From Clostridium sp. CX1 (GTDB lineage Bacteria > Bacillota > Clostridia > Clostridiales > Clostridiaceae): 64,000 bases of DNA. Positions 55,061 to 64,000 of this stretch are shown here, piece by piece. Where the stretch lies: the NCBI RefSeq assembly GCF_025398335.1, contig NZ_JAODOO010000009.1:62001-126000 (forward strand). Direction: 5' to 3'. Each line of letters opens with the position of its first letter. The stretch's first letter is position 1. The translations under genes and the position numbers were made by a program. The notes beneath the pieces were generated by a model, which was given only the letters and a program-made list of their open reading frames with translations, did not search any database and was not told where the DNA came from.

Positions 55061-55195
55061 ATTACATTAAACCTATCTTTTATTATAATTTATTTAATAC
55101 CTTAGTTCAATAAAAGGGAGGTAATGAGATTTAATTCACACCTGAACTGCACTTAGCATATATTAGAGATTATAAATTCTATGGGAGATGAAAAC

Positions 55196-55801
55196 ATGTC
55201 TCATCTATTTATACCTAGAACCTTTCACCGTATCTGGTTGGGTGACAAACCTATGCCTATAGATTTTATAAACTACGGAAGGACATGGTGTAGAAAGCAT
55301 CCAAGTTGGGGAATAAAGCTTTGGACTGATAAAAACATGATACCGCTTCAAAATCAAAAGGCTTTTGACAATGCATTTCATCCAGTTTTAAAATCAGATA
55401 TTGCCAAGTTAGAAATTTTATATAACTTCGGAGGGGTATATATAGATTGTGATTTTGAATGTTTAAGAAACATTGAAGCTTTAATAACAGATAGAAACTT
55501 TTTTGCCGCTTATGAAAGTTATGATATGATCTCTACAGCAATCATGGGGTGTAGCCCCAAAAATCCTATCATAAAAACTTTAATAGATGGTATTCCTAAG
55601 GCACTAAAATTCAGGAAATGCAGGACTATAAACTACAGGTTAGGTCAAGCCTATGCTACTGAAAAACTAGTAGATAGACATGATATTAAAATTTTTGATT
55701 CTGCACTGTTTTACCCCTATCTATATGACGAAAAAAACAAAAAAAATAATAAGTTTCCTAATGCTTATGCAGTTCACCACTGGGCCGGCAGTTGGCTATA
55801 A
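55196..55801 (+). CDS. GT32-like glycosyltransferase (OCH1/capsular sugar-transferase type)
   Basis: 201 residues from ATG 55196, with GGGAG 8 nt upstream; the ATG at 55181 overlaps that site. N-terminal PRTFHRIWLG (7-15) and the DXD motif D84-C-D86 in NFGGVYIDCDFECL define the family (Gly_transf_sug). Cytosolic, no signal or membrane helix. First of three glycosyltransferase-type genes reading rightwards into the stalk-protein region. Confidence 0.88.
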   Translation: MSHLFIPRTFHRIWLGDKPMPIDFINYGRTWCRKHPSWGIKLWTDKNMIPLQNQKAFDNAFHPVLKSDIAKLEILYNFGGVYIDCDFECLRNIEALITDRNFFAAYESYDMISTAIMGCSPKNPIIKTLIDGIPKALKFRKCRTINYRLGQAYATEKLVDRHDIKIFDSALFYPYLYDEKNKKNNKFPNAYAVHHWAGSWL

Positions 55802-55918: not shown

Positions 55919-56761
55919 ATGATAAAAATAAAATTCCATGCTAATTGGTGTTCTGATTATGAAATCAGGGAGCATTTTAACAGGTGTACTACTAATAATG
56001 ACTATACATGGAAAAATTTATTTATAACTTTAGATGATGATTATGATTTTTTCGTAATTATGAATCATCCACAGCATAATAATTTTCCTCCCTCTAAAAC
56101 AATAGTATTTCAATGTGAACCTGAATCTACTAGAATGTGCTGGGGTAATTTTTATAAACCAGACTCCAAAGCTTTTTTTAAGGTTTACGATACCGAGCAT
56201 AATCACAATGTGGACAAATGGTTTATAGGACTAAACTACCAGCAGTTGCTAAATGGTAACTTCTCCAAAAATAAAGTAATGTCTGGGATAGTATCTGGAA
56301 TATATAACTTAGAAGGTCATGTAGATAGATTTAATTTCCTTAAGTATTTAGATAAGCTTCCATTTTATGAACACTTTGGCAAGGGAGATCTAGGTTTTTT
56401 AAAATCCTTTAAAGGATATTTACCTAATAAAGAAGATGGTCTAATTTCATATAGGTACCACTTTAATGCAGAGAATGTTTATGAAAAAAATTACTTTACA
56501 GAGAAAATAATAGATCCTATACTTTGTGAATGCTTATGCTTTTACGATGGATGTCCAAATATTGAAGAGTTTATTGATTCAAGAGCCTATATAAAAATCA
56601 ATTTAAAAAAACCAGATGAATCTCTTGAAACTATAAAATGGAGCATTGAAAATAATGAATATGAAAAGAGAATCCCTTTTATAAAAAAAGAAAAAGAAAA
56701 ATTAATGAATGAACTGAATCCATTGAACATTATTTATAAAATAATTAGAGGTGAAATATAG
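55919..56761 (+). CDS. GT10 (alpha-1,3-fucosyltransferase)-like glycosyltransferase
   Basis: 280 residues. The C-terminal half has the GT10 pattern: SYRYHFNAENVYEKNYFTEK, then DPILCECLCFYDGCPNIEEF. The N-terminal half (DYDFFVIMNHPQHNNF, FQCEPESTRM) matches the acceptor domain of bacterial relatives. Donor could be GDP-fucose or another sugar. No signal peptide. Only 2 nt before the next gene, so they are co-translated. Confidence 0.8.
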   Translation: MIKIKFHANWCSDYEIREHFNRCTTNNDYTWKNLFITLDDDYDFFVIMNHPQHNNFPPSKTIVFQCEPESTRMCWGNFYKPDSKAFFKVYDTEHNHNVDKWFIGLNYQQLLNGNFSKNKVMSGIVSGIYNLEGHVDRFNFLKYLDKLPFYEHFGKGDLGFLKSFKGYLPNKEDGLISYRYHFNAENVYEKNYFTEKIIDPILCECLCFYDGCPNIEEFIDSRAYIKINLKKPDESLETIKWSIENNEYEKRIPFIKKEKEKLMNELNPLNIIYKIIRGEI

Positions 56762-56763
56762 TA

Positions 56764-57495
56764 ATGAATGTTTTAGCCACTGCCTGTAACTCAGCATATT
56801 TTAATGCTTGTTTAACCTTAATAGCTAGTATTCATCGACTAAGCTTTAATGATGTTGATAAAATACTTGTATATAATTTAGGTCTTACTGAGGATGAAAA
56901 AGAGCAGCTTAACAGTTTGCAGAAGGTCCAGGTTATGGAATTTAATTTAGACGATTCTTATTTTGAGGAATATTTAACTCCAAAGCAATTTGCTTGGAAG
57001 CCTTATGTTATTAAGGATGCCGGAAACTATGGTAACCTAATACTATACATGGATTCCGGTGCTGTAACCGTAAAAAATATTAAATGCCTATATGATATTA
57101 TTGAACAGGAAGATATTCTCATTGTAGGTGACTACCACCCAAACTATGTTTATACCCACGATAAATGTTTTGAAATAATGAATGCTACAGAAGAAGAAAA
57201 ACAATATCTTCAAATTTGGGCAGGAATGCAAGGCTATAAGGTTAATGGAAAATATCAAAGTTCCTATGTAGATGAGGCCTTTAAATTCTCAAAGTTTAAA
57301 GATGCTGTTTTCGGCAATCATACAAATCACAGACATGATCAAAGTATTTACTCCATTCTTTGCTGCAGAAACAAGATTCCTAGACAGGATATTTATATAT
57401 ATGGAGAATGGCGAGGTATTAATATGAATCCTCATCAAATTATATATGCTCATAGACGAGCTTATTCTAATCTAGAGGGGTTAATATATAAGTAA
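56764..57495 (+). CDS. Putative glycosyltransferase, family not assigned
   Basis: 243 residues. N-terminal VLATACNSAYFNACLTLIAS, then KQFAWKPYVIKDA and LILYMDSGAVTVKNI resemble the nucleotide-sugar half of GT-A enzymes, with M-D-S-G in the DXD position, as in GT8-like and DUF1647-type proteins. A later NHRHDQSIYSIL is shared with such families. Cytosolic. Immediately follows the GT10-like gene. Function is inferred from fold features and context. Confidence 0.65.
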   Translation: MNVLATACNSAYFNACLTLIASIHRLSFNDVDKILVYNLGLTEDEKEQLNSLQKVQVMEFNLDDSYFEEYLTPKQFAWKPYVIKDAGNYGNLILYMDSGAVTVKNIKCLYDIIEQEDILIVGDYHPNYVYTHDKCFEIMNATEEEKQYLQIWAGMQGYKVNGKYQSSYVDEAFKFSKFKDAVFGNHTNHRHDQSIYSILCCRNKIPRQDIYIYGEWRGINMNPHQIIYAHRRAYSNLEGLIYK

Positions 57496-57583: not shown

Positions 57584-57752
57584 TACGCAGCTACCACCAT
57601 ACCAATTTCAGCGCTCTGTTACCATATAAGGGAATAAATATAACATCGCATACTTATAAAAATTATATTAGTGAGTAACTTAATGCAATATATATTCATA
57701 TACTGTAATTATAAGTTCTTTTGTTTTAAGTGATTGATAAAGGAGATTTCAA

Positions 57753-58604
57753 ATGGAAAATAAATCACTAAACTGCAATAAACAAAGTCAATATAATGAG
57801 AAGTCAGTTAACTTACTTAACTGTGAAACATATAAAAAAATAGATGTATCTATTAATATGTGTTCATATTTACCAGACTGCAATACTTATGATGTGTCCT
57901 TTTCTTCCTGTGAAGTAGAGAAAAAAATAAATGTAAATGCACAAGTAAGTTGCAGCCCCTTCCACTGCAGCTACATAGATTCATTAATCTCTTCAGCTAA
58001 TTATTGTATATCTGATGAAGGCTGCTACAACTGCTGTGATAGCCCTATATCTAATGATGGTGCCTCTTTAGCTTTGCCATGTCAACCTATTGAAGACATA
58101 TTCATAGATTTACCTGAATGCCCTAAGGATGAGGAAAACTCTTCAAATTCAATTGAACTAACTTCTAATGTCAGTGTAAGTGAAGAAGATAAAAAAAGTT
58201 ACTCTGTTACAACAGATGATAACACTATAACCACAGACAACACTGAAATAGTAGAGGACCTTAGTGTAGCAAATCTCTCCCACAAGAAAAAAAGAAAAAA
58301 AGAGGGGATAAATATGAAACCTAATTCTCATTTGATTTTAGCAGTATTAACCAACCTCATAGATATGTTTTTAAAAAATTGCTCCAAGGAGGAAATTATT
58401 CAAAATGAATCTAATCTGATTATAAAAGATGAAAGTGATACAACTGATAAACCTATTAAAGGTCACAGACATCATAGACATGATAGACATCGCAAACATC
58501 GTAGTCACCATAGGCATAGTAAGCAAAATAACCTTATTAAGTATAATATAAATGATGTAATTATAATATCCATTTTCGAACTAATGAGAAGGCTAAACGA
58601 GTAA
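57753..58604 (+). CDS. Cys-rich and His-rich protein, possible spore-surface protein
   Basis: 283 residues, no signal peptide. Residues ~1-125 contain about 16 cysteines, some in clusters (EGCYNCCD). Then comes an acidic Ser/Thr-rich linker (~125-175), a Lys-rich patch (HKKKRKKEG), a helical segment (SHLILAVLTNLIDMFLKNCS) and a basic His/Arg block (GHRHHRHDRHRKHRSHHRHS) near 240-260. Such composition is common in spore coat or exosporium proteins. AAAGGAG precedes the ATG. No family recognised; function inferred from composition and neighbours. Confidence 0.7.
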   Translation: MENKSLNCNKQSQYNEKSVNLLNCETYKKIDVSINMCSYLPDCNTYDVSFSSCEVEKKINVNAQVSCSPFHCSYIDSLISSANYCISDEGCYNCCDSPISNDGASLALPCQPIEDIFIDLPECPKDEENSSNSIELTSNVSVSEEDKKSYSVTTDDNTITTDNTEIVEDLSVANLSHKKKRKKEGINMKPNSHLILAVLTNLIDMFLKNCSKEEIIQNESNLIIKDESDTTDKPIKGHRHHRHDRHRKHRSHHRHSKQNNLIKYNINDVIIISIFELMRRLNE

Positions 58605-58718: not shown

Positions 58719-58738
58719 TAGGCAAAGTCATATGCCTA
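58719..58738. promoter_or_regulatory. TAGGCA-N8-TGCCTA palindrome before stalk protein 1
   Basis: TAGGCA-AAGTCATA-TGCCTA, ending 30 bases before the ATG at 58769. The identical half-sites with the same 8-nt spacing occur before stalk protein 2. Confidence 0.6.
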
Positions 58739-58768
58739 ATAATATTAAAGAAAAGGATAGTGAATATA

Positions 58769-59314
58769 ATGGACGAAAGTAAAAAAATAATAAACGTTAA
58801 TTCACCATTATACGAGGAGTTTGCTGCAGATGAGGATTTCTCTCCAGATTGGCCTCCAAGACCAACAACTGCAAGACCGACTACTACAGCACCTACAACT
58901 GCAAGACCAACTACTGCGGCACCTACAACTGCAGCTCCAACCACTACTGCACCAACTCCAACACCTTGTCCATGTTGTTTCTCAACAGAAAGAAGAGTTG
59001 ACTATGATAGATGTGAACTAGTTGAAGAAGAAAATATTGAAACTGTAGTAAATTGTGTTGGAAGGTTCCTAGATGTTACCGTTACATTGAGAAATGTTTG
59101 TCCAAATAAATGGGTTGCAGTAGGTGTATTAGTTTATGACGCACAGAATAGACTTCTATCATTTAAAGTTTGCAGACTGTTTACTGGTGATGGCCCTAAC
59201 TGCATACCAAGCTTAAATTCTGGAAGATTCTGTTTTGTGTTTGATGAAAATGATTCTTGTCCTGGCCCTCGTACTTTTACTGTAAGAACTGTATCCAATT
59301 ACCTGGAAAGATAA
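58769..59314 (+). CDS. Mucin-like Pro-Thr-Thr stalk protein 1 with ten-cysteine C-terminal domain
   Basis: 181 residues from ATG 58769 (AAAGGA upstream, as in the paralogue). Residues 1-18 hold a motif shared with the paralogue (MDESKKIINVNSPLYEEF). Residues 31-66 are repeats of P-T-T-A-R/A. The rest is a domain with ten conserved cysteines (CPCC, YDRC, NCVGR, NVCPNK, KVCRLF, NCI, RFCFVF, SCPG) ending NYLER. No signal peptide, membrane helix or sortase motif. The stalk is an ideal O-glycosylation substrate. I know no named family for the C-terminal domain. Confidence 0.8.
   Translation: MDESKKIINVNSPLYEEFAADEDFSPDWPPRPTTARPTTTAPTTARPTTAAPTTAAPTTTAPTPTPCPCCFSTERRVDYDRCELVEEENIETVVNCVGRFLDVTVTLRNVCPNKWVAVGVLVYDAQNRLLSFKVCRLFTGDGPNCIPSLNSGRFCFVFDENDSCPGPRTFTVRTVSNYLER
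58859..58966 (+). repeat. PTT coding repeat of stalk protein 1
   Basis: About seven 15-nt units encoding P-T-T-A-R/A variants (36 residues). Codon variation shows it is not a recent slippage product. Confidence 0.8.
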
Positions 59315-59341
59315 ACATCTTTATATTTAATGCGATATTTG

Positions 59342-59375
59342 AAAGTCTGGGGCCTAAAGTCTCAGACTTTTAGTA
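59342..59375 (+). terminator. Hairpin after stalk protein 1
   Basis: AAAGTCTG/CAGACTTT, 8-bp stem, 13-nt loop, then TAG; short T run only. Confidence 0.5.
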
Positions 59376-59429
59376 AGCAACTCTATTAAATCACAATATA
59401 AGTTTATTATGATTGGAGGAAATAACCTA

Positions 59430-60419
59430 ATGTTCTTAAACAAGTTATCTCTAAATTATAAAAAAAAATCAACTCCAGTTAAAGTTAACGAAGACTATCA
59501 GATAGAAAACATAAGTAACTTATCTAAAAATGCTCCCGCCTCTCCTGATGTTTCAATTATAATCGCCTTAAGAAATGAAGTTGATAACTTAGAAAGGACA
59601 ATAAAATCTATTGTTGAATCGAAAAATAGTCTTGCATTTGAGATAATTATAGTTGATGATGGGTCAATTGATGGAAGCTGTGATTTTTTAAAACAAAATG
59701 AAGAGCTTTACGGAAATGTCACTGTTATATATTCAGATACCATAGGAGCTGCAAAGTGCAAAAATATAGGTGCTATAAATTCAAAAGGCAAATATTTATT
59801 TTTTTGTGATGCTCATATTGAGGTTCCTGACAATTGGCTGGACACCCTTGTAAAAACACTAAATGACCTAAATGCTCAAGCTATAGTTCCAGCAATAAAG
59901 TCCATAGGTAGTGATTATAAAGGTTATGGTGGCACTTGGAATAATAAACTCAATTTTACTTGGCTTGATAAGCCCTCAGAGGATACTGCAGAAATACCCC
60001 TAGCTCCTGGATGTGCTTTTGGAATAAAACGGGACGTATTCGAATCTGTGCAAGGTTTTAATACTAATTTACAAGTTTATGGTGTCGAGGATCAAGAACT
60101 TTCGCTAAAACTATGGTTGTTCGGCTATAAAATTGTGGTGGACTCAGCCGTGGAAGTTGGTCATCTCTTTAAAGTTAACAATTCCTATAAAATCACATAT
60201 GCAGACATTATGTACAATTATTTATGCCTTTGCTATTTTCATTTCAGTGATAATAACTTCTCTAAAGCTATAGTTACTTTAAGTCAAAATAAACTTTTTA
60301 CTACAGCTGCTGCCAAAGCATTAATTAATCAAGACTTAATGAACCAAAGAAAGGATTATTTCTGCAGTAGGAAATATGATGATGACTGGTTTTTTAATAA
60401 ATTTAACATTGAGCTTTAG
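59430..60419 (+). CDS. GT2 glycosyltransferase with polypeptide GalNAc-transferase (GT27)-like signatures, copy A
   Basis: 329 residues from ATG 59430 (GGAGG 10 nt upstream). GT-A domain: SIIIALRNEVDNLERTIKSI, VDDGS (75-79), then FFCDAHIEVPDNWLDTL with D-A-H at 127-129 in place of the usual D-x-D, LAPGCAFGIKRDVFESVQGF, and VYGVEDQELSLKLWLFGYKI (V-E-D-Q-E at 219-223) with H245. The DAH plus W/Y-G-x-E-D-x-E pattern is that of polypeptide GalNAc-transferases. No lectin domain or membrane anchor. C-terminal QRKDYFCSRKYDDDWFFNKF is shared with copy B. Confidence 0.87.
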   Translation: MFLNKLSLNYKKKSTPVKVNEDYQIENISNLSKNAPASPDVSIIIALRNEVDNLERTIKSIVESKNSLAFEIIIVDDGSIDGSCDFLKQNEELYGNVTVIYSDTIGAAKCKNIGAINSKGKYLFFCDAHIEVPDNWLDTLVKTLNDLNAQAIVPAIKSIGSDYKGYGGTWNNKLNFTWLDKPSEDTAEIPLAPGCAFGIKRDVFESVQGFNTNLQVYGVEDQELSLKLWLFGYKIVVDSAVEVGHLFKVNNSYKITYADIMYNYLCLCYFHFSDNNFSKAIVTLSQNKLFTTAAAKALINQDLMNQRKDYFCSRKYDDDWFFNKFNIEL

Positions 60420-60542
60420 TTAATCACCTATAAGTCTGAATAAGTAACTAATTATGAAAATAGCATTAGATGTTACTTTCTATATATATATATATATGTC
60501 TTATTTAAGATTTTATAAATATGACTGGAGGAATTTATTTTT

Positions 60543-61514
60543 ATGAGTTCAGAAATATTTTATGATAATGAACTTGGTAATGCAAATGTTTTAGACAAAG
60601 TAGATATACTCACAAATAGAACTGAAGATACCTACACTTATGATGCTTCTATAGTAATCCCCTGCAGGGATGAATCAGTGAACTTAAAAAATACAGTAGA
60701 TTCTATAATGAATTCAAAAAATCGGCTATCTTTTGAGATTATTGTAGTTGATGATGGTTCAACGGATGGATGCTGTGAGTTTATAAACAATAATAGAAAT
60801 GCTTACCCAAACCTAAGACTCTTCACATCAAAAAATTTAGGTCCATCAGCAGCACGAAATTTGGGTGGAGACAATGCTCTCGGTAAATATATCTTTTTCT
60901 GTGATGCCCACGTAACAGTTCCCGATTATTGGCTTGACAAGCTTATAAAAACTCTTGAAGAAAACAACGCTGATGTTGTAGTTCCCGCAATTAAAGATAA
61001 CGTAGGTGGTGGAGTGGGCTACGGAGAAACTTGGCGTGAAAAGCTCCAAGTTACTTGGCTAGGTAAACCTAATCGGGACGGTGAAGAAGTTGCTCTGGCT
61101 CCCGGTGGTGCTTTCGGACTACGTAAAACTGCTTTTGATAATATTGGCGGCTTTGAAAGACATTTTGAAGTTTGGGGAAAAGAAGATGAGGAAATTTCAT
61201 TAAAACTATGGCTCTTTGGCTATAAAATTGTTGTTGACTCCTCTGTTGAAGTAATTCACTTATTTAAACTAACTAACAACTATGGTGTGACACACATAGA
61301 TTTCATGCACAACTTCTTATGCATGGCTTTTTCCCATTTTGGTATCGAAAACCTAATTAAGGCCTTTGACATGGTAAAGGATACCCCAGGGTTTCCTGAA
61401 GCCTTAGCACGAGTAATGCTGAATGAAGATTTGTTAAGACAACGAAGAGATTATTTTAGTAGACGGAAATTTGATGAAAACTACTTTTTTAATAAATTTG
61501 ATATTAAATTTTAA
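60543..61514 (+). CDS. GT2 glycosyltransferase with polypeptide GalNAc-transferase (GT27)-like signatures, copy B
   Basis: 323 residues, GGAGG before the ATG. Same layout as copy A: SIVIPCRDESVNLKNTVDSI, VDDGS (69-73), FFCDAHVTVPDYWLDKL with D-A-H at 121-123, LAPGGAFGLRKTAFDNIGGF, FEVWGKEDEEISLKLWLFGY (W-G-K-E-D-E-E at 211-217) and H239. The W-G-x-E-D/N-x-E box matches human GalNAc-T sequences even better than copy A. Tandem duplicate of copy A (RRDYFSRRKFDENYFFNKF end). Likely modifies the adjacent stalk proteins. Confidence 0.88.
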   Translation: MSSEIFYDNELGNANVLDKVDILTNRTEDTYTYDASIVIPCRDESVNLKNTVDSIMNSKNRLSFEIIVVDDGSTDGCCEFINNNRNAYPNLRLFTSKNLGPSAARNLGGDNALGKYIFFCDAHVTVPDYWLDKLIKTLEENNADVVVPAIKDNVGGGVGYGETWREKLQVTWLGKPNRDGEEVALAPGGAFGLRKTAFDNIGGFERHFEVWGKEDEEISLKLWLFGYKIVVDSSVEVIHLFKLTNNYGVTHIDFMHNFLCMAFSHFGIENLIKAFDMVKDTPGFPEALARVMLNEDLLRQRRDYFSRRKFDENYFFNKFDIKF

Positions 61515-61618
61515 AATTAGCAGTACTAAGTTAAATATAAGCTTTTAATGTTGTGTAAATAAAAATGTAAATCTTATACAACTTGTGAACATTATTATTT
61601 ATTGCCCATATCATATAT

Positions 61619-61638
61619 TAGGCAAATGTTATTGCCTA
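61619..61638. promoter_or_regulatory. TAGGCA-N8-TGCCTA palindrome before stalk protein 2
   Basis: TAGGCA-AATGTTAT-TGCCTA, ending 38 bases before ATG 61677. Just upstream is CATATCATA with an AC dinucleotide 16 nt before it, which fits a sigma-K -10/-35 pattern, though such short matches are weak evidence. Confidence 0.6.
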
Positions 61639-61676
61639 GTATATCACTAAAAAATTGAAGAAAGGATATTGTAGTT

Positions 61677-62228
61677 ATGGATGAAAATAGTAAAACAATA
61701 AATATCGATTCTCCTTTATACGAAGGATTTGAGGAGATAAGTACCTCTGCAGAATGCTGTTGCCCAACCACCGCTAGGCCGACTACTGCTAGACCAACGA
61801 CCTCCAGACCTACTACTGCTAGACCAACAACTACAGCCCCAACTACCTCTATACCAACAACTGCCGCACCAACTCAGGCACCTTGCACATGTTGCTCTGC
61901 AGAACAAAGACCTATAACATATGATAAATGCGAATTGGAAAAAACAGAAACCTTCAATAATGTAACCTTAGATTGCACAGGTAGACTATTAGATGTAAAT
62001 GTTACATTAAGGAATGTTTGCCCAAATAAACGAGTTGCTGTAGCAGTATTAGTTTACGAAGGCAGCAATCTACTATCCTTGAAGGTTTGTAGATTATTTA
62101 CCGGTGAAGGTACTAATTGCATATCAACTCTAAATGCTGGTAGATTCTGCTTTGTATTTGACGATGCCCCTTGTCCTCCATCTCGCACCCTTACTGTTAG
62201 AATTATTGCTAATTACTTAGAAAGATAA
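61677..62228 (+). CDS. Mucin-like Pro-Thr-Thr stalk protein 2 with ten-cysteine C-terminal domain
   Basis: 183 residues, GAAAGGA upstream. Paralogue of the gene at 58769: N-terminal MDENSKTINIDSPLYEGF, a C-C-C motif before the stalk, residues 30-68 of P-T-T-A/S-R/A repeats, and the same cysteine domain (CTCC, YDKC, DCTGR, NVCPNK, KVCRLF, NCI, RFCFVF, PCPP) ending NYLER. The C-terminal domains are about three-quarters identical by eye. No signal peptide. Stalk length is similar but the repeat sequence differs, consistent with selection on composition, not sequence. Confidence 0.8.
   Translation: MDENSKTINIDSPLYEGFEEISTSAECCCPTTARPTTARPTTSRPTTARPTTTAPTTSIPTTAAPTQAPCTCCSAEQRPITYDKCELEKTETFNNVTLDCTGRLLDVNVTLRNVCPNKRVAVAVLVYEGSNLLSLKVCRLFTGEGTNCISTLNAGRFCFVFDDAPCPPSRTLTVRIIANYLER
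61764..61883 (+). repeat. PTT coding repeat of stalk protein 2
   Basis: About eight 15-nt units encoding P-T-T-A-R, P-T-T-S-R and P-T-T-A-A variants. Confidence 0.8.
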
Positions 62229-62298
62229 AAGAGTTTTCAATATATTATACCTAAGCTTCTGTGTATTAAACTCAAACTTTATAAGGAACTAATACATT

Positions 62299-62355
62299 GC
62301 CTATCCGGTCACCACTGGTAATCTAAAAACCAGAGAAATGTTACATCGGATGGGC
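62299..62355 (+). promoter_or_regulatory. Nested hairpin in the leader of the Asp-box stalk gene
   Basis: Outer GCCTATCCG (62299-62307) pairs with CGGATGGGC (62347-62355), 8 of 9 positions; inner CTGGT/ACCAG (62315-62333). It ends ~47 bases before the start codon. No known riboswitch recognised. Confidence 0.4.
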
Positions 62356-62401
62356 TTTAGCTAATAAACAGATGCACATAGTTTTAAAGGAGTGAATTAA
62401 G

Positions 62402-64000
62402 TTGCCAGATAACATTATACCAAAAAAACTTGCCATTGAACTTTTAAGTAAACTAGAACCAGAAACCTCTTTAGCTTTTAAAAAAGGTGCTTTAATCCCC
62501 AAAATAACGAAAGACATAGTTCCTACAGGCGATGTTTGTCCTAACTGTGGAAATGGCAACTCAGGTCCAGGTTCTCCTGGTGAAAGACAGGTTAACGCAT
62601 CTTCCATAGATGCTAATGAGTATCCAAATATAACCCAAAGTGAAACAAGCTTAGCTTACTTTGGCGAATTTATTCTTTTTGGATTTAATGACTCCAATGA
62701 TGCTCCCACAGGTTTTTCAGGATATGGATTTTCAAGCGATAGTGGGGTTACCTGGTGTGATTGCGGCTCCGTACCTATAGGAGGAGATATTATAGACAAT
62801 GGTGGAGATCCTGTTATAGCAGTAGATACTAAGGGAATTTTCTACTATGGACATCTCGGAACGCTATCATCAGGTGAATCTGTAATAATTGTTAACACTG
62901 CCCAAGTAAATAATACAAATAGAACATTACAATTTAATAATCCTATTGTAGTAGGTAGGGGGCAGTCTCTGCCAAATAGGCTTCAAGATAAAGAATGGAT
63001 AACCGTTGGTATTGATAAAAATCAAACTGGCTCACAGGCTCTCTATGTTACTTGGAGTGATTTTCTACAACGGGGTTCACAGGAATTAACCACAATCAGG
63101 TTCTCTAAATTTACAACAGGTCCAACTCCCACAGAAATAATCGGAAGTAAAACTATAGCTCACACTACTCTAGATCCTTTAACAAGCTATGTTTCCGGTT
63201 CTTTTCCAGTGATAGACAGCAACGGGAATATATATGTATTCTATGAACAAATTGATTTAAATTCTTTAGATTGCTTTATCTATATGGTTAAGTCAACAGA
63301 CGGGGGAGTTAACTTTAGTTCTCCAACGCTAGTTTCAGGTCCTTTTGTTCAGGCTGGAAATGCTGTAGCTTGCGACAGACTTGTAATTGCTGTTCCACCA
63401 GATTTTACTAGATCCATTAGAATAAATGAGTTTCCACATGCTGCTGTTGCCCCTGATGGTACACTTTATGCAGTCTGGAATGCTAGCGTTAGTTTAGAAG
63501 AATTTCAATCTAATATATTCCTAGCTTACAGCACTAATGGTGGCGATAGCTGGACCACAACTCCAGTTACTAATAGTATAGCTACTGAATTCTTCCCATC
63601 TGTTGCCTTTAATTGCGACAGAGCTCATATACACTACAATCGCTTTAATGATCCGAATAATGTAGGCGACACTGGAAATGGTACTTTTGCATTATTTAAA
63701 AAGAGTTTTTCTATCACAGAGGGTTTAAGTGCTGAAAGTCAAGTTAGCACAGTATTTTCACCAGTACCAATTACTAATCCTAATTTTGATACTGCTGTTT
63801 CAGGCTGTTATATGGGTGACTATAATCAGATAATCGCTGGACCTGGAAATGCGCTATATCATGGCTGGAGCGATAACCGTTTTGTTTTAAATGGAAATCA
63901 AAATCCAGATGTATTCTTTATTGAAACAGAATGTATACCTGCTCCAACTACAGCTGCACCGACTACAGCAGCTCCAACTACAGCTGCACCGACTACAGCT
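62402..64000 (+). CDS. Asp-box (BNR/sialidase-like propeller) protein with Pro-Thr-Thr tail, partial
   Basis: Open for all 533 codons to the window edge, starting at TTG 62402 after AAAGGAG. No signal peptide. N-terminal ~50 residues then CPNCGNGNSGPGSPGE, followed by a beta-propeller-like region with Asp-box motifs: SSDSGVTW, STDGGVNF, STNGGDSW, and the phrases AVAPDGTLYAVWNA, NGNIYVFYEQ. From codon ~514 (63941) it becomes P-T-T-A-A repeats that continue beyond the window. Asp-box folds occur in sialidases and in non-enzymatic binding proteins; catalytic residues of sialidases are not evident. Third member of the stalk-protein set. Confidence 0.8.
   Translation, partial: MPDNIIPKKLAIELLSKLEPETSLAFKKGALIPKITKDIVPTGDVCPNCGNGNSGPGSPGERQVNASSIDANEYPNITQSETSLAYFGEFILFGFNDSNDAPTGFSGYGFSSDSGVTWCDCGSVPIGGDIIDNGGDPVIAVDTKGIFYYGHLGTLSSGESVIIVNTAQVNNTNRTLQFNNPIVVGRGQSLPNRLQDKEWITVGIDKNQTGSQALYVTWSDFLQRGSQELTTIRFSKFTTGPTPTEIIGSKTIAHTTLDPLTSYVSGSFPVIDSNGNIYVFYEQIDLNSLDCFIYMVKSTDGGVNFSSPTLVSGPFVQAGNAVACDRLVIAVPPDFTRSIRINEFPHAAVAPDGTLYAVWNASVSLEEFQSNIFLAYSTNGGDSWTTTPVTNSIATEFFPSVAFNCDRAHIHYNRFNDPNNVGDTGNGTFALFKKSFSITEGLSAESQVSTVFSPVPITNPNFDTAVSGCYMGDYNQIIAGPGNALYHGWSDNRFVLNGNQNPDVFFIETECIPAPTTAAPTTAAPTTAAPTTA
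63941..64000 (+). repeat. PTT coding repeat at the window edge
   Basis: Alternating 15-nt units encoding A-P-T-T-A; more regular than the other two repeats. It runs off the window. Confidence 0.8.

Follow-up and report, generated by a model that had tools for sequence, protein, structure and literature searches.

The window analysed here, a stretch of 64,000 nucleotides from the 4.24 Mb genome of Clostridium sp. CX1 (contig NZ_JAODOO010000009.1, positions 62,001 to 126,000), ends in a locus in which two tandem genes for GT27-like glycosyltransferases (GT27L), enzymes A and B, lie among genes for proteins with threonine-rich P-T-T stalks (Table 1). A first-pass annotation of the sequence had proposed that the enzymes resemble the polypeptide N-acetylgalactosaminyltransferases (GalNAc-transferases) of glycosyltransferase (GT) family 27 and act on the three P-T-T proteins around them. 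All three proteins were confirmed, and a fourth lies past the end of the window. The start of stalk protein 1 was taken at the ATG at 58769, the list of open reading frames (ORFs) beginning at a GTG at 58760.

Table 1. Genes and sequence features of the GT27L locus; positions are those of the window unless preceded by L009.
Feature	Position	Strand	Remarks
Sigma-K-like match	55138..55165	+	Upstream of GT32-type gene; by usual consensus
GT32-type sugar transferase	55181..55801	+	PF04488, 47.7 bits, above cut-off
GT10-like (fucosyltransferase-like) ORF	55919..56761	+	16.6 bits, under Pfam cut-off
GT8/DUF1647-like ORF	56764..57495	+	Both Pfam matches under cut-off
Loose sigma-K-like match	57677..57705	+	Upstream of Cys/His-rich gene
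Cys- and His-rich protein	57753..58604	+	No Pfam match; probably coat-like, by composition
Inverted repeat TAGGCAAAGTCATATGCCTA	58719..58738	.	Directly upstream of stalk 1
Stalk protein 1	58769..59314	+	Short leader SPLYEEF, P-T-T stalk, Cys-rich C-terminal domain
GT27-like glycosyltransferase A	59409..60419	+	336 aa; C-D-A-H; without lectin domain or hydrophobic span
GT27-like glycosyltransferase B	60543..61514	+	323 aa; C-D-A-H; AlphaFold2 model, pLDDT 90.9
Sigma-K-like promoter match	61589..61615	+	Upstream of stalk 2; by usual consensus
Inverted repeat TAGGCAAATGTTATTGCCTA	61619..61638	.	Upstream of stalk 2
Stalk protein 2	61677..62228	+	Architecture as stalk 1 (short leader, P-T-T, C-terminal domain)
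Stalk protein 3	62402..64000	+	Extends past window; complete at L009:8402-10501, 699 aa; 13 P-T-T units
Stalk protein 4	L009:11116-12123		Beyond window end; 13 P-T-T-A-A units

Both enzymes carry D-A-H in place of D-x-D, and both hold an L-A-P-G-x-A-F-G box (LAPGCAFG in enzyme A, LAPGGAFG in enzyme B), as the first-pass annotation had reported. The W-G-x-E-D-x-E box that it had also described stands in enzyme B (WGKEDEE) and not in enzyme A, where the tryptophan is replaced by tyrosine (YGVEDQE); the H-L-F that follows is found in both. The profile search that it had suggested placed both enzymes over the Pfam gathering cut-off of 23 bits for Glyco_transf_7C (26.0 bits for A and 33.1 bits for B) and over that for Glycos_transf_2, their best Pfam family. 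Among aligned sequences from the same loci and from control loci, D-x-H was found in 140 of 149 GT27L rows and in none of 98 other GT2 rows, the remaining nine GT27L rows having G-x-H (four), gaps (three), D-x-G (one) and E-x-H (one); as distinct sequences the counts are 99/107 and 0/91. Since one of the genome-scan patterns contains D-A-H, this share arises partly by construction, and the 35 of 40 distinct GT27L sequences with D-x-H from loci found by profile instead of by that pattern are the fairer figure. D-x-D, where enzymes A and B have D-x-H, was read in 68 of the 98 other GT2 rows. A C-terminal histidine is present in 142 of 149 GT27L rows (at this position 88 of the 98 other GT2 rows are unaligned) and, together with D-x-H, corresponds to the manganese ligands Asp209, His211 and His344 described for GALNT1 (PMC4202792). 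The donor/acceptor loop reads W-G-x-E-D in the majority of GT27L sequences and begins with Y-G in enzyme A, where GalNAc-transferases have W-G-G-E-N.

Single-sequence searches of the PDB returned GalNAc-transferases first (E = 2.1e-18 for enzyme A and 8.3e-15 for enzyme B). With a profile of 42 GT27L members, the first 14 of the 43 distinct sequences listed were GalNAc-transferases (E = 1.5e-33 to 1.1e-30), with matches spanning about positions 10-225 of 299, and the best other GT2, a chondroitin synthase, followed at 9e-26 with a best stretch of 12-122. The AlphaFold2 model of enzyme B (mean predicted local distance difference test score, pLDDT, 90.9; predicted template-modelling score 0.88) led to GalNAc-transferases in 50 of the 50 PDB matches listed by Foldseek (of 630 at E <= 0.001), with TM scores of 0.69-0.76 by query length and 19-24% identity in the structural alignments of these 50, in keeping with the fold comparison that had been called for. 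In a Foldseek search against viral proteins, the named ones among the 50 matches listed were glycosyltransferase-like or uncharacterised, plus one with an odd label.

GT27L is a discrete family: the proteins scored against its profile reach either at least 129 bits or at most 90 bits, with a gap between. In the reverse direction, a profile of six animal GalNAc-transferase catalytic domains found GT27L as the top match in 27 of 27 GT27L-bearing genomes, and the best match in a 28th genome, an Acidobacteria metagenome-assembled genome without a true GT27L, reached only E = 2.5e-6. A tree of 68 rows, comprising 34 GT27L, 28 other GT2 and six GalNAc-transferase sequences (among them 6s22, GalNAc-T3, and 6e4r, Drosophila PGANT9, according to their structure titles), placed GT27L and the GalNAc-transferases on one side of a branch and the other GT2s on the other. 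This branch has a support of 95 in the Shimodaira–Hasegawa-like approximate likelihood-ratio test, the sole measure used, which rose to 97 once five long rows were removed. One GT27L row fell outside the remaining GT27L in the free tree, a single GT27L group not being rejected (p = 0.70 in the approximately unbiased test), and the topology is compatible with the animal enzymes lying either inside GT27L or beside it. The other GT2s were sampled from the same genomes as GT27L, so that a closer bacterial relative may exist elsewhere. Profile, fold, D-x-H, tree and reverse search all agree with the eukaryotic GT27 signatures recognized in the first-pass annotation; clustering with ordinary polysaccharide GT2s, which it had named as the alternative outcome, did not occur, enzymes A and B grouping with the GalNAc-transferases and having their fold. 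The proposed kinship of this bacterial tandem pair with polypeptide GalNAc-transferases is strongly supported by these sequence comparisons and by the predicted model.

The four stalk proteins hold 6, 7, 13 and 13 P-T-T motifs, respectively, within stretches of 41-77 residues that contain 34-39% threonine and 0-2 serines. The repeat units read P-T-T-A-A/A-R, and collagen-like G-X-X repeats are not present in the stalks. Repeat units match one another at 61-91% in DNA (nine rows of Tandem Repeats Finder), and stalk 4 repeats P-T-T-A-A 13 times without deviation at the peptide level, its threonine, alanine and proline codons being synonymously mixed, which suggests that the repeat peptide is conserved by selection. 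By a mucin-like rule of at least five threonines and four prolines per 16 residues, three of the 59 non-overlapping ORFs of at least 60 residues in the window qualify, and all three flank the GT27L pair. The heads of the stalk proteins vary, being short leaders only in two of them, a region of about 500 residues with a weak BNR match in a Pfam scan in stalk 3, and a region without a Pfam match in stalk 4. Kinship of the stalk 4 head with that of a Litchfieldia stalk protein was suspected and then discarded, since BLASTP of the pair returned no similarity.

Common to all four is one Cys-rich C-terminal domain of about 112 residues, for which no Pfam match was found and a profile of 11 members gave no match in the PDB up to E = 10. 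The AlphaFold model of stalk 2 has a mean pLDDT of 52, with 54-80 by block in its beta-rich C-terminal part, and this low-confidence model gave no Foldseek match at E <= 0.001. The domain occurs in 11 of 57 related genomes (E <= 1e-4) and GT27L in six of the 57 (E <= 1e-15), one of these six being a partial match with stops (G022) that is probably an ordinary GT2. In other Clostridia (L027-L035) the domain mostly belongs to short Cys-rich proteins that have no P-T-T stalk.

Proline- and threonine-rich (P/T) stretches also lie beside GT27L in proteins of other make-up in Litchfieldia, Virgibacillus, Cytobacillus, Oceanirhabdus and other Clostridium. Litchfieldia salsa has VTTTPA repeats, Virgibacillus and Cytobacillus have VTTTP linkers, and linkers of the type PTTPPTT or PTPTPT occur in Clostridium, Oceanirhabdus and OS1-26. 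For counting, GT27L sequences were clustered at 85% identity, a neighbour was an ORF within two ORFs with at least five threonines and four prolines, and the controls were ordinary GT2 loci from the same genomes (40 fetched, of which five without a scored GT2 were dropped, leaving 35). A P/T-rich neighbour was found in 13 of 81 GT27L clusters and in one of 35 control loci (p = 0.037), the 81 including the CX1 locus and loci inspected by eye before the rule was chosen; by ORF, 15 of 315 near and four of 537 far were P/T-rich (p = 2e-4). As the rule was set after P/T neighbours had been noticed by eye, unseen clusters were counted separately, and nine settings of the rule on these gave locus-level p values of 0.058 to 0.318. 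Adjacency of GT27L to P/T stalks recurs in other lineages, at a minority of loci.

Several features bear on a possible link to spores. Proteins destined for the spore surface are synthesized in the cytosol of the mother cell, where UDP-sugars are available. No hydrophobic span (19-residue mean hydropathy above 1.48) was found in the two enzymes and four stalk proteins; none looks secreted or membrane-bound, which fits glycosylation in the mother cell. Sigma-K-like sites, by the usual consensus, lie upstream of three of the 11 genes read (one of them loose), the strict form occurring 11 times over both strands of the window, or 0.02 per 250 bases. SpoIVA was found in 27 of 28 GT27L genomes and in 307 of 370 others in a phylum sample (one-sided p = 0.042, taking both 398-genome draws as an identical set); since 334 of the 398 genomes have SpoIVA the association is modest, and the sole GT27L genome without a match (G177) is 80% complete. 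The CX1 genome carries both SipL and SpoIVA. Of ten GT27L neighbours scanned against Pfam, one, in G103, matched the SPOCS domain of SipL (cut-off 23.6 bits) strongly at 132.9 bits, those of Virgibacillus and of another member of the Litchfieldia order fell just under the cut-off (22.7 and 21.8 bits), and six others, including that of Litchfieldia, gave no Pfam match.

When 84,980 species genomes were scanned with patterns made from Clostridium rows, which biases the result, 54 loci were returned, of which 53 belong to Bacillota, including Clostridium, Pelotomaculum, Paenibacillus, Brevibacillus, Bacillus and Rossellomorea; the 54th is a weak Acidobacteria match with an ordinary GT2 score. Many of the GT27L-bearing genera form endospores. 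Within the phylum sample, 28 of 398 genomes carried GT27L; the Litchfieldia order had it in 20 of 299 genomes and the Paenibacillus order in eight of 198, with five of these eight matches being weaker. A distant subfamily of GT27L (L042:8724-10019, L039, L040 and L041) is preceded by a conserved protein of 130-132 residues that is not a stalk, one copy of which has a weak CarboxypepD_reg match, and its operon holds, by eye, nucleotide-sugar, aminotransferase and PIG-L-like genes. In Clostridium sp. OS1-26 one GT27L copy (L037:15181-16101) is interrupted by an in-frame TGA that leaves two ORFs, and is probably a pseudogene.

Characterized GT27 enzymes (GALNT1/2/4/10/12 and PGANT9) share with GT27L a GT-A catalytic domain over most of the length, D-x-H, the C-terminal metal-binding histidine, part of the GG loop, the W-G-x-E box and the order of these elements. 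GT27L differs from them in its identity of only 19-24%, in being without a ricin-type lectin domain, in having no membrane anchor that could be seen and in reading W-G-x-E-D for W-G-G-E-N. Bacterial GT27 annotations already exist in genera that also yielded GT27L in the present analysis, Aneurinibacillus (L093) and Cytobacillus (L083), the latter now including Bacillus firmus; the likeness is drawn by annotation and genus. In B. firmus GB1, gb1_47520 was reported in 2011 as a candidate polypeptide GalNAc-transferase, 'a surprising finding', for which host-glycan remodelling or mimicry was proposed, with no mention of spores or stalks in the part of the paper at hand (PMC3178493). One GT27 is tabulated for an Aneurinibacillus genome (PMC7996765), and a polypeptide N-acetylgalactosaminyltransferase has been predicted in M. 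smithii (PMC10939349). Among titles and abstract beginnings of open-licence papers, a literature search found nothing linking GT27 to spores or P-T-T stalks. The presence of GT27 in Bacilli was annotated as early as 2011, and the link to spores and stalks appears to be new.

The closest experimentally tested parallel is offered by C. difficile, in which the gene for SgtA lies beside bclA3 and the enzyme adds beta-linked N-acetylglucosamine (GlcNAc) to threonines of BclA3 peptides, using UDP-GlcNAc alone among three donors (PMC7157674). As at the GT27L locus, a transferase gene adjoins the gene of a Thr-rich stalk, and the direct transfer from UDP-sugar to threonine seen for SgtA in vitro is the kind of reaction proposed for GT27L. 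The two systems differ in that BclA3 has collagen-like repeats and the CX1 stalks have P-T-T, and the product of SgtA is beta-O-GlcNAc. In F-ENA-4 spore fibres from an anaerobe of the Clostridia, extra density at five serines and three threonines was assigned to likely O-glycans, no enzyme being named in the part of the report at hand (PMC11952670).

The reading that we prefer, with a probability of about 0.55, is that the GT27L pair glycosylates the stalk threonines of four spore-surface proteins in the mother cell and that the extended sugar forms a mucin-like coat. The enzymes, each a GT27 catalytic domain without a lectin domain, would act in the mother-cell cytosol during sporulation and put an N-acetylhexosamine (HexNAc), most likely N-acetylgalactosamine (GalNAc) from a UDP-sugar, directly onto the threonines of P-T-T, for which PTTAAPTTAAPTT may serve as a model acceptor peptide. 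Fucosyl- and other nearby transferases would then extend the sugar into a mucin-like spore coat. We infer the spore location, the timing in sporulation, the cytosolic site, the acceptor, the donor sugar and the extension alike. Because SgtA uses UDP-GlcNAc, either GalNAc or GlcNAc may be the sugar donated, homology favouring GalNAc. The P-T-T threonines are a plausible substrate: the adjacency is real and recurrent, but it is found at a minority of loci, the unseen subset gives p = 0.11 and the Clostridium magnum locus is an exception.

A number of observations weigh against this reading. On the side of the enzymes, the D-x-H share is partly built in by finding loci via the D-A-H pattern, the donor/acceptor loop departs from W-G-G-E-N, and a ricin-type lectin domain gave no Pfam match in the two proteins, which at 323-336 residues end after the catalytic part. 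The Toxoplasma GalNAc-T3 (8uhv, 4.7e-24) and GalNAc-T7 (1.3e-23) rank after chondroitin synthase, and the closest matches are limited to what the PDB contains. The distant GT27L subfamily, with one copy in the CX1 genome, lies within a nucleotide-sugar/glycan operon. On the side of the substrate, only 13 of 81 GT27L clusters are accompanied by a P/T-rich ORF, and among unseen clusters the figure is five of 36 against one of 35 controls (p = 0.106). The C. magnum enzyme pair adjoins a stalk homologue that has the leader and C-terminal domain and no P-T-T; given this exception and the minority of clusters, P/T stalks are a recurrent and not an obligatory partner. Eight of the 11 genomes with the stalk domain are without GT27L (nine if the partial G022 match is discounted), which shows that the domain is not dependent on the enzyme.

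One alternative is that the enzymes are GT27-like and act on spore-surface proteins, but have acceptors other than the P-T-T stalks, which would be mere neighbours; such acceptors could be coat-like, propeller or SPOCS-domain proteins encoded nearby, or a sugar that is attached beforehand. The wide distribution of GT27L in Bacillota amid diverse genes, the lack of a P/T neighbour within two ORFs in 68 of 81 clusters, and the P-T-T-free C. magnum homologue speak for this possibility, which we nevertheless consider unlikely in view of the P/T linkers that recur beside GT27L in unlike proteins from both Bacilli and Clostridia and of the position of all three mucin-like ORFs of the window around the enzyme pair. 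Transfer of alpha-GlcNAc or another HexNAc to polypeptide threonine, as by GT60 enzymes, instead of GalNAc, appears improbable: the 50 structural matches and first 14 profile matches listed are all GT27, GT60 is absent from both lists, and no match to the GT60 family, modelled as PF11397, was listed by a Pfam scan with a limit of E = 1. The case for it lies in the replacement of D-x-D by D-x-H, which is described as specific to GT27 and GT60, both glycosylating Ser/Thr of polypeptides and grouped with GT7 and GT2-CHS (PMC7185993), and in the use of UDP-GlcNAc alone among three donors by SgtA (PMC7157674). That the enzymes are ordinary GT2s taking part in the synthesis of a polysaccharide of the spore or cell surface, as their best Pfam family, the glycan operon of the distant subfamily and the proximity, by eye, of Rossellomorea copies to CysC/CysQ-like and epimerase genes might suggest, is very unlikely, and as the whole story it was rejected on the score gap, the tree, the fold and the absence of D-x-H from all 98 ordinary GT2 rows.

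If the P-T-T stalks are indeed glycosylated by GT27L, mucin-type initiation would not be solely an invention of animals and protists, and a soluble, lectin-free bacterial GT27 would exist with its acceptor encoded next door. The origin of the GalNAc-transferases would become testable, small soluble enzymes would be at hand for producing O-glycosylated peptides in E. coli, and it could become clear what the outermost layer of many spores in the environment consists of chemically. More tentatively, and at somewhat less than even odds, endospore formers may possess a prokaryotic branch that is sister to the enzymes initiating mucin synthesis in animals, acting on mucin-like P/T stalks of spore-surface proteins in the mother-cell cytosol, of shared ancestry with the animal GalNAc-transferases and perhaps predating them.

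Extension of the glycan by nearby transferases is possible, judging from the gene content. The first-pass annotation had listed a GT32-type, a GT10-like and a third transferase upstream of the locus; the first exceeded its Pfam cut-off, and the other two matched only weakly, below theirs. The GT32-type ORF is also just over the cut-off for the catalytic glycosyltransferase model of TcdA/TcdB (25.2 versus 23.6 bits), with a best stretch of only 21 residues, most likely reflecting the common fold of DxD sugar transferases. A DUF6492 ORF follows stalk 4, and a second glycan cluster lies 12-17 kb downstream (L009:19130-19999 and L010:70-4899). This cluster holds a third GT27L gene, GT4-type and GT11-type genes, a 228-residue glycosyltransferase with a Glyco_transf_7C match, and genes for GDP-fucose synthase and GDP-mannose dehydratase above curated cut-offs. 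His- and Cys-rich proteins are encoded near GT27L both here (57753-58604) and in C. magnum (L036:6843-7331). Finally, the two inverted repeats directly 5' of stalk 1 and stalk 2 are near-identical (TAGGCAAA...GCCTA). The pattern occurs at these two sites only in the window, giving four matches over both strands where 0.23 are expected, and at eight places genome-wide, the two stalk sites included; the repeats may represent a shared leader hairpin, a regulator site or a by-product of duplication.

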